A stretch of DNA of 64,000 bases from Actinomycetota bacterium (GTDB lineage: Bacteria; Actinomycetota; CADDZG01; WHSQ01), in contig JAUJNI010000002.1 of NCBI GenBank assembly GCA_030446465.1, positions 297,895 through 361,894 of the forward strand, in the 5' to 3' direction. Each line of letters begins with the position of its first letter. The stretch's first letter is position 1. The notes beneath the pieces are model-generated. The model searched no databases. It was not told where the DNA came from and saw only the letters and a program-made list of their open reading frames with translations. Positions 1,137 through 4,514 of the stretch are shown here, one piece after another. A program made the translations under genes and the position numbers.

Positions 1137-3161
<2,025 letters not shown>

Positions 3162-3167
3162 GCTCGA

Positions 3168-3204
3168 GCTAAAAGAAACCGGCGCAGGGACGTCCCTGCG
3201 CCGG
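3168..3204 (-). terminator. Perfect 13-bp stem hairpin with T-rich tail on the minus strand
   Basis: Positions 3179-3204 are a perfect 26-bp palindrome (CCGGCGCAGGGAC and its reverse complement). Read on the minus strand it is followed by GGTTTCTTTTAGC, a classic intrinsic-terminator tail. Read on the plus strand there is no T-run, although the hairpin may still stop ligA transcripts. The better tail on minus implies a transcript arriving from about 3.4 kb. Confidence 0.7.
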
Positions 3205-3420
3205 CTATTGGTTCGCACACATCATCTTCCGCTGCTTCTCTGTGAGAACCCGGTGGACCAATCCGGGACGGTAGATGCCGGTGAACCGGTGTGGATTCCG
3301 CCAGTGGCCCGAAGCTTCCGGCCAGAACCCAAAGGAGTACGGCTAAGCCACTAGCTGCCGGTCACCTCACGAGGTCCATGTGAACTATCACTCAATTTGT
3401 GGGACCACCTCCTTTCTCGT
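3205..3420 (-). ncRNA. Candidate structured minus-strand transcript in the ligA-SDR gap
   Basis: The gap between ligA and the next plus-strand gene has no convincing protein gene but is rich in short inverted repeats. TGGCC/GGCCA encloses GAAGCTTC at 3305-3324. CCGG/CCGG has a TGAA loop at 3278-3289. CCCGG/CCGGG is at 3249-3267, and CGGC/GCCG at 3340-3360. On the minus strand the series ends in the terminator at 3179-3204. It is preceded at 3417-3402 by AGAAAGGAGGTGGTCC, complementary to 15 of 16 bases of the usual 16S rRNA 3' tail. A 14-codon TTG-initiated frame (3395-3351) follows that site and then stays open beyond its TAG. It could be a regulatory RNA or a leader-peptide mRNA. Boundaries are approximate; no RNA family was recognised with confidence. 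Confidence 0.4.
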
Positions 3421-3575
3421 GTACGGAAATGAAACCACAGCCCGGAACTTTGGAAGGCACTTTTGTGGGTGAAATTCGGAAGGATTTTTCAGTGGGTGGG
3501 CGTAGAGGGTTAAGGCCACCTCGACTAAGGTCTCAGTCTCCAAGGACAGGGCTCGTCGGGCAGGAGGTAGCCGGA

Positions 3576-4514
3576 ATGGCGTTACTGCAAGGAAAGGTCG
3601 CGATCGTCACGGGCGCCGGGCGCGGCATCGGCCGCGAGCATGCGCTGGCGCTCGCCCAACAGGGGGCCAGGGTCGTGGTCAACGACCTCGGCGGGTCTTC
3701 CGCCGGTGAGGGCCAGGACCAGGCCCCCGCTCAGCAGGTGGCGGACGAGATCACCTCGGCCGGAGGAGACGCCACCGCCAACTACGACAACGTGGCGGAC
3801 TTCCAGGGGGCCGAGAACCTGGTCAAGCAGGCGGTGGAGGAGTTCGGCCGGCTCGACATCCTGGTCAACAACGCTGGGATCATTCGCGACCGCATGCTGG
3901 TCAACCTCTCCGAACAAGAATGGGACGCGGTCATCAACGTGCACTTGAAGGGCCATTTCGCCCCGACCCGGCACGCCGCGGCCTACTGGCGCGAACAGTC
4001 CAAGGCAGGCAACCAAGTAAGCGGACGGGTCATCAACACATCGAGCCCCTCCGGCGTGTTCGGCAACGTCGGCCAGACCAACTACGGGGCCGCCAAAGCC
4101 GGCATCGCCGCGTTCACCATCATCGCGGCGCTCGAGCTCGGCCGCTACGGAGTCACCGTCAACTGCCTCGCGCCGAACGCCCGCACCCGCCTGACGGAGC
4201 AGACCTTTGGCGATCTGCCGGCTCCTGAAGACGGTTTCGACGCCATGCACCCCGCCAACATCTCGCCCATCGTGGTGGCGCTCGCGAGTGAAGAGGCGGG
4301 GAACATCACCGGACAGACGCTGTTCGTGTACGGGGGCATCGTGAGCGTCCTTCGCTCGTGGGACATCGGCACCGTGATCCAGCAGGAGTCTCGCTGGCAG
4401 CCGGACGAGTTCTTGGCCAAGCTCACCGAGGCGTTCCCCTCCGGAGTGGCGCCGGAGGGGATGATGGGAATGATGGTGAAGGCCACCGCCGGGGCAGGAG
4501 TGCCACTTGGTTAG
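3576..4514 (+). CDS. SDR-family oxidoreductase, 3-hydroxyacyl-CoA/ACP dehydrogenase type
   Basis: A short-chain dehydrogenase/reductase of 312 residues. The cofactor loop TGAGRGIG lies at residues 12-19, NNAG at 99-102, and the catalytic Ser-Tyr-Lys set in NTSSPSG...Y170-x3-K174. The sequence resembles the dehydrogenase part of peroxisomal multifunctional enzyme 2 and FabG4-like proteins. With the hotdog genes behind it, the likely reaction is NAD(P)-dependent interconversion of 3-hydroxyacyl and 3-oxoacyl thioesters. The ATG at 3576 is chosen because AGGAGG (3562-3567) precedes it by 8 nt and the SDR fold begins right there. First gene of a coupled cluster; its stop overlaps the next start by 8 nt. 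Confidence 0.88.
   Translation: MALLQGKVAIVTGAGRGIGREHALALAQQGARVVVNDLGGSSAGEGQDQAPAQQVADEITSAGGDATANYDNVADFQGAENLVKQAVEEFGRLDILVNNAGIIRDRMLVNLSEQEWDAVINVHLKGHFAPTRHAAAYWREQSKAGNQVSGRVINTSSPSGVFGNVGQTNYGAAKAGIAAFTIIAALELGRYGVTVNCLAPNARTRLTEQTFGDLPAPEDGFDAMHPANISPIVVALASEEAGNITGQTLFVYGGIVSVLRSWDIGTVIQQESRWQPDEFLAKLTEAFPSGVAPEGMMGMMVKATAGAGVPLG

Follow-up and report, generated by a model that had tools for sequence, protein, structure and literature searches.

The window, the whole 64,000-nucleotide (nt) stretch of actinobacterial DNA that was analysed, contains a short segment at positions 3168-3420 that is flanked by ligA (1161-3161, plus strand; DNA ligase domains) and by a short-chain dehydrogenase gene lying within the frame at 3399-4514 (plus strand). 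A small RNA is predicted to be transcribed from the minus strand of this segment. Its distinguished elements are as follows:

3429-3434, minus strand: position of the putative -10 box, TTTCAT preceded by TGTG, a weaker match that starts at -22, the site used by the homologues
3170-3422, minus strand: predicted transcript of about 253 nt, its ends deduced from where the terminator and the -10 box lie
3422-3213, minus strand: core of the transcript, matching Rfam family RF02471
3425-3249, minus strand: match to covariance model R1 (175.4 bits)
3402-3417, minus strand: extended Shine-Dalgarno sequence AGAAAGGAGGTGGTCC
3351-3395, minus strand: micro-ORF TTG...TAG of 14 codons with the predicted product MSDSSHGPREVTGS, its frame kept in 186 homologues
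3177-3206, minus strand: intrinsic terminator (terminator scan) with 13 pairs and the tail TCTTTT

An earlier note, made from the letters of this DNA only, had described an extended anti-16S box here, and AGAAAGGAGGTGGTCC was indeed found at 3417-3402 (minus strand). The 3′ end of the 16S rRNA encoded in the same assembly is GGATCACCTCCTTTCT, so that 15 of the 16 bases of the box form Watson-Crick pairs with it and the 16th forms a G-U wobble. The computed energy of this duplex is -29.0 kcal/mol, compared with -12.6 kcal/mol for a good AGGAGG-type site, and in all 186 homologues the computed duplex with the 16S tail lies between -22.7 and -30.6 kcal/mol. The exact 14-mer GAAAGGAGGTGRTC occurs in the 2.76-Mb assembly only at this site and in the 16S gene, while a search for the box allowing one mismatch gave ten matches genome-wide. 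The 16S rRNA gene itself (G000:C6:875949-877751, minus strand; locus L198) carries two group I introns (RF00028, 66.1 and 50.2 bits), one of which is inserted near the 3′ end, after AAGTCGTAA, with the 3′ exon resuming at ACAAGGTAGCC. Group I introns are unusual in bacterial 16S genes.

At the other end of the RNA, the terminator stem of 13 pairs described for the minus strand is present, but its restriction to that strand was slightly too strong a claim, since the mechanical scan also reported a weaker plus-strand version. The folding stability of the window RNA exceeds that of shuffled sequences (z = -2.57). Matches of the terminator to FinP, MIR1883, guanidine-II and other Rfam families scored far below the gathering score and were dismissed as chance.

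Screening of the window with cmscan revealed a single match above the gathering threshold, RF02471 (Ms_IGR-5), at 3422-3213 (minus strand), which covers the whole model (positions 1-184) and scores 49.9 bits, the cut-off being 45. The window copy is a member of this actinobacterial sRNA family. Ms_IGR-5 was first detected and annotated in M. smegmatis (PMC10454040). RNA-seq has validated a member of the family in S. lividans (PMC8079986), and the homologue of Streptomyces avermitilis is a separate sRNA transcription unit (PMC8780764). The homologues of M. abscessus and M. smegmatis carry ribosome-protected reads, with the caution of the authors that footprints arise on non-coding RNAs as well (PMC4974804). 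No function or micro-ORF of RF02471 is stated in the literature found (subscription journals were outside the search), so the family has so far an expression record without a function there.

The Rfam model has matches in 17 of the 24 genomes of the class and in 69 of 396 sampled genomes of the phylum. A sequence pattern composed of the box, a gap, GAGGTGRCY and CTRR was found in 71 of the 396 genomes, and its reversed form in none. Within named genomes it occurs on at least 120 contigs; the matches listed include Streptomyces, Mycobacterium, Nocardia, Micromonospora, Nocardioides, Cellulomonas and Acidimicrobiia. Viral contigs contain no match, and a phage origin was rejected on this ground. 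Covariance model R1, for which 11 close relatives and the new fold derived from covariation served as the basis (its E-values are rough), detected the RNA in 131 of the 396 sampled genomes, with one copy in each except for one genome with two. The family is thus present in about a third of the sampled actinobacterial genomes, usually as a single copy, and includes relatives of Mycobacterium and Streptomyces. The only two-copy genome of the sample, G227 (C207:1710-1884, minus strand, and C163:5048-5215, plus strand), is listed as 7% contaminated.

Outside the phylum, full-length R1 matches were found on three contigs labelled Sumerlaeota (L082, 4782-4962, 48.7 bits), Nitrospinae (L114, 4940-5105, 53.3 bits) and "bacterium" (L057, 5261-5426, 57.3 bits), all on the minus strand. 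Each has matched changes of its own in helices P1a and P3 (see below) and an open micro-ORF. Their presence on contigs with such labels means that the family may predate the actinobacteria; either the RNA is more widely spread or the contigs are mis-binned. A pattern match in L102 (Bryobacterales) reached 11.4 bits and was rejected as chance.

In 149 of 184 homologues, a TANNNT motif has its first base 23 to 21 nt ahead of GGAGG. With this placement, transcription would start close to the first base of P1a; a sigma-70 scan of the window copy gave no promoter match. The gene downstream of the RNA lies on the same strand in 76 loci and on the opposite strand in 109 (neighbours were picked by codon composition, because antisense frames in GC-rich DNA confuse blastp clustering). 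As the strand is not conserved, the RNA appears to have no attached gene, and regulation of a downstream gene was rejected, the strands of the neighbours being random. A dependence on ligA, the next gene in the window and convergent to the RNA, was rejected as well, since the neighbours differ in other genomes. The RNA is a free-standing unit, as judged from the lack of strand conservation in its neighbours, its usual single copy per genome and its status as a separate unit in Streptomyces avermitilis.

Leader-peptide attenuators of the trpL, ermCL and speFL type likewise comprise a short frame, a terminator, and helices whose competition would be settled by a ribosome. These classical parts are all found here, and to this extent the anatomy fits the leader peptide that the earlier note had considered. 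However, attenuators have a regulated gene downstream and RF02471 does not: the RNA ends in its terminator, the next gene lies on either strand about equally, and in the window it is the convergent ligA. We therefore regard attenuation of a downstream gene as very improbable.

The micro-ORF of the window copy has exactly the anatomy first described, with a TTG start at 3395-3393, 14 codons and a TAG stop at 3353-3351. Its conservation was examined in 186 distinct homologous sequences, with frames read relative to the stop codon. Translated in this frame, the homologues show a conserved frame of 10-15 codons, which is open in 186 of 186 sequences (54 and 15 for the other two frames). In 173 of the 186, an NTG codon situated 8-12 nt after GGAGG shares the frame of the stop; the corresponding numbers for the other two frames are 5 and 2. 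Of the 13 homologues lacking such an NTG, 11 have ATT, ATC or ATA at the same place and in the same frame; the remaining two, as judged by eye, start with ACG (L047) and with GTG one codon later (L002). In the subset found with the Rfam model, where no stop was imposed by the search pattern, a stop is present in 57 of 57 sequences (TAG in 47, TGA in 7, TAA in 3). The stop position is always occupied by a stop that switches among TAG, TGA and TAA, and the start codons interchange likewise. In one clade (L204, L205, L206 and L208) the register of the frame over GAGGUG is shifted by one, so that L205 reads TTG TTA CAG ACC AGT GGA GGT GAC TGT AGC TAG (MLQTSGGDCS). Since start and stop still agree in spite of the shift, the frame is kept for its own sake.

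On sequence comparison, we regard this conservation of the frame as decisive for selection on the micro-ORF. RF02471 appears not to be simply non-coding, as Rfam describes the same family, to which our full-model match belongs; it has a conserved reading frame preceded by a ribosome-binding site of unusual strength. In a base-pairing sRNA the frame could be no more than an incidental device for loading ribosomes, and this reading would agree with the filing of the family by Rfam as an sRNA and with its free-standing transcription unit. Such an RNA would not require the precision of the frame (173 of 186, versus 5 and 2) or a stop kept through changes among TAG, TGA and TAA, and we consider it improbable.

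The frame might also be a minimal mRNA whose product is the peptide, the fold merely controlling its synthesis. Apart from the conserved frame, this reading is favoured by an excess of synonymous changes among the first codons when close pairs are compared (187 of 663 in frame 0, where 126 were expected, the pairs being non-independent), with none in frame 1 (138 of 652; expected 151), and by the recurrent C-terminal pattern xTREVAVR / GPREVTGC. However, frame 2 also has a mild excess (88 of 364; expected 72), the identity of the C-terminal residues is imposed by the GGACC segment together with P1 and P3, variation is free in the N-terminal half, and the clade exemplified by L205 has the C-terminal segment in another frame. 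The sequence of the peptide is conserved only loosely, in contrast to the strict conservation of start, stop and RNA helices, and a peptide as the product is in our judgement rather unlikely. The same feature distinguishes RF02471 from dual-function sRNAs (SgrS/SgrT, RNAIII/hld, SR1/SR1P, Spot 42/SpfP), which are also small RNAs holding a short frame but whose frames encode defined peptides.

In the window copy the frame of the micro-ORF stays open for 42 codons after the TAG, a length that is not conserved, and this open segment had suggested a longer gene that is read through the stop codon or by a frameshift. Among 13 close relatives the open stretch after the stop ranges from 2 to more than 75 codons, and its mean length in the 186 sequences (40.8 codons) hardly exceeds that of the other two frames (35.5 and 36.1); in addition, indels are not in threes. 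As the open length is not conserved, this reading is unsupported. It is contradicted, moreover, by the persistence of the stop through changes among the three stop codons, and we give it practically no credence.

Covariation among the homologues gave a fold of four helices. Its elements in the window copy are as follows:

3416-3421, minus strand: 5′ strand of P1a, CACGAG, at the extreme 5′ end of the RNA, pairing with CTCGTG at 3373-3368
3368-3373, minus strand: 3′ strand of P1a, CTCGTG, in the micro-ORF at the codon before GAGGUG (swap and double-change tests)
3402-3406, minus strand: 5′ strand of P1b, GGTCC, the 3′ part of the Shine-Dalgarno sequence, pairing with GGACC at 3377-3373
3373-3378, minus strand: TGGACC in the micro-ORF, alternative partner for P1b or for the P4 loop (swaps, covariation)
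3358-3366, minus strand: 5′ strand of P3, GGTGACCGG, in the last codons of the ORF, pairing with 3289-3280
3280-3289, minus strand: 3′ strand of P3, CCGGTTCACC, after P2 (alignment pair counts)
3346-3357, minus strand: 5′ side of P2, comprising the last codon and the stop codon, pairing with 3309-3298
3298-3309, minus strand: 3′ side of P2 (alignment pair counts)
3293-3297, minus strand: conserved segment AATCC joining P2 and P3 (alignments)
3249-3267, minus strand: P4 hairpin, CCCGG-ATTGGTCCA-CCGGG (alignment pair counts)
3254-3259, minus strand: P4 loop GGTCCA, pseudoknot partner of TGGACC at 3378-3373

In P1, the Shine-Dalgarno core bulges out on one side, and the loop contains the start codon. 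Pairings were tested by swapping strands between homologues (186 sequences; 122 cluster representatives), the strands being defined by nothing other than their fixed distance from GAGGUG; the P4 hairpin was located without looking at its partner. None of 2000 swaps was as good as the self pairing for P1a, for P1b or for the P4-loop pairing, although P1b and the P4-loop pairing share a GGUCC/GGACC core, so that each signal may in part be due to the other. In an alignment of 104 sequences, 92.6% of pair cells form standard pairs (73.3% in shuffled and 28-43% in slid controls), and changes on both sides occur in 30 of 35 pairs; this alignment, unlike the swap tests, was fitted to the fold, and shuffles and swaps correct only partly for relatedness.

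Double changes affect 5 of 6 pairs in P1a, with matched replacements such as CGTGAG/CTCACG (L010, L011), CTTC/GAAG (L040, L101, L123), CGTA/TACG (L045) and CCAAA/TTTGG (L097). They affect all 11 pairs of P2, 7 of 9 in P3 (95.8-99.0% of cells paired) and all 5 in P4 (96.7% of cells paired). The support for P3 comes from the 104-sequence alignment, as shuffles matched half the time in a loose regular-expression test. When GGAC in the frame changes to GGAT, the P4 loop changes from GTCC to ATCC (CATCC, AATCC or similar) in most such cases, and GGTCC on the Shine-Dalgarno side changes to GATCC in 10 of 14. Because the P4 loop and P1b use the same TGGACC strand, the two pairings are mutually exclusive, and competing helices that overlap the frame are thus present, each better than all swaps.

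The Rfam model has a different first helix, in which GGUGGU pairs with a segment after GAGGUG, that is, the Shine-Dalgarno sequence with the end of the frame. This helix shows no double changes in the 104 homologues and does no better than its shuffles. The window copy can form five of its six pairs, so the flaw lies in the helix of the model and not in this member. By contrast, the new fold of P1, P2, P3 and P4 is strongly supported by comparison of the homologues. The free-energy minimum of the window copy alone did not return this fold, which accordingly rests on comparison. With its membership of RF02471, its strong compensatory changes and its conserved micro-ORF, the RNA bears out the conserved structured RNA suspected in the earlier note.

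Two variants of the structure were also observed. In the short form found in L204-L206 and L208, a terminator-like hairpin follows directly after P3, and P4 and the pseudoknot seem to be absent. In close relatives, by eye, a segment of the P2 loop (GGATTCT or GGGTTCT) is complementary to the conserved AGAATCC joiner (3332-3326 and 3299-3293, minus strand, in the window), which would add one more alternative pairing.

The strength of the 16S pairing admits a further interpretation, a ribosome decoy in which the 16-bp anti-16S site and slow starts titrate 30S subunits. This would resemble 6S RNA, which imitates a promoter and titrates RNA polymerase; in both cases an RNA would imitate the substrate of a central machine. 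The pairing far beyond that of normal sites in all members, the frequently weak starts (TTG, CTG, ATT, ATC, ATA) and the uniqueness of the site in the genome agree with such a role. However, a decoy needs neither a frame-keeping stop nor an alternative fold of the 3′ half of the frame, and it would require a very abundant RNA. Whereas 6S RNA is a promoter mimic, RF02471 has a real ribosome-binding site, start and stop, and we consider a decoy unlikely.

The interpretation that we favour, with somewhat better than even confidence, is that RF02471 is a free-standing sRNA working as a ribosome-gated switch. Ribosomes unwind mRNA helices while initiating, elongating and terminating. Capture of a 30S subunit by the Shine-Dalgarno sequence would open P1, and this would free or block the pairing of P4; elongation and termination at the stop would then open P3 and P2. 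The supply of ribosomes, start selection or stalling could in this way set which fold of the RNA exists, and the resulting fold might control RNA stability or pairing with a partner in trans.

The infC mRNA has an AUU start behind a strong Shine-Dalgarno sequence, and its initiation is sensitive to start selection. The combination of a strong site with a weak or near-cognate start in RF02471 (ATT, ATC or ATA in 11 of 186 members) may likewise make initiation selective, although infC has a long protein frame and RF02471 has none. We put forward only tentatively, as a possibility that we hold to be doubtful, that RF02471 is a phylum-wide trans-acting RNA with its fold set by ribosome occupancy, that is, a free-standing sensor of 30S supply or of start-codon selection with no attached gene. 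If ribosome occupancy does control RF02471 in trans, this would extend a design so far seen in cis leaders only. The corrected structure, the conserved frame and the two competing pairings make the family testable with a few point mutants.

In two homologues, L199 and L210, the P4 hairpin seems to lie within the terminator stem. With this arrangement, pairing of the P4 loop with the frame could affect transcription termination.
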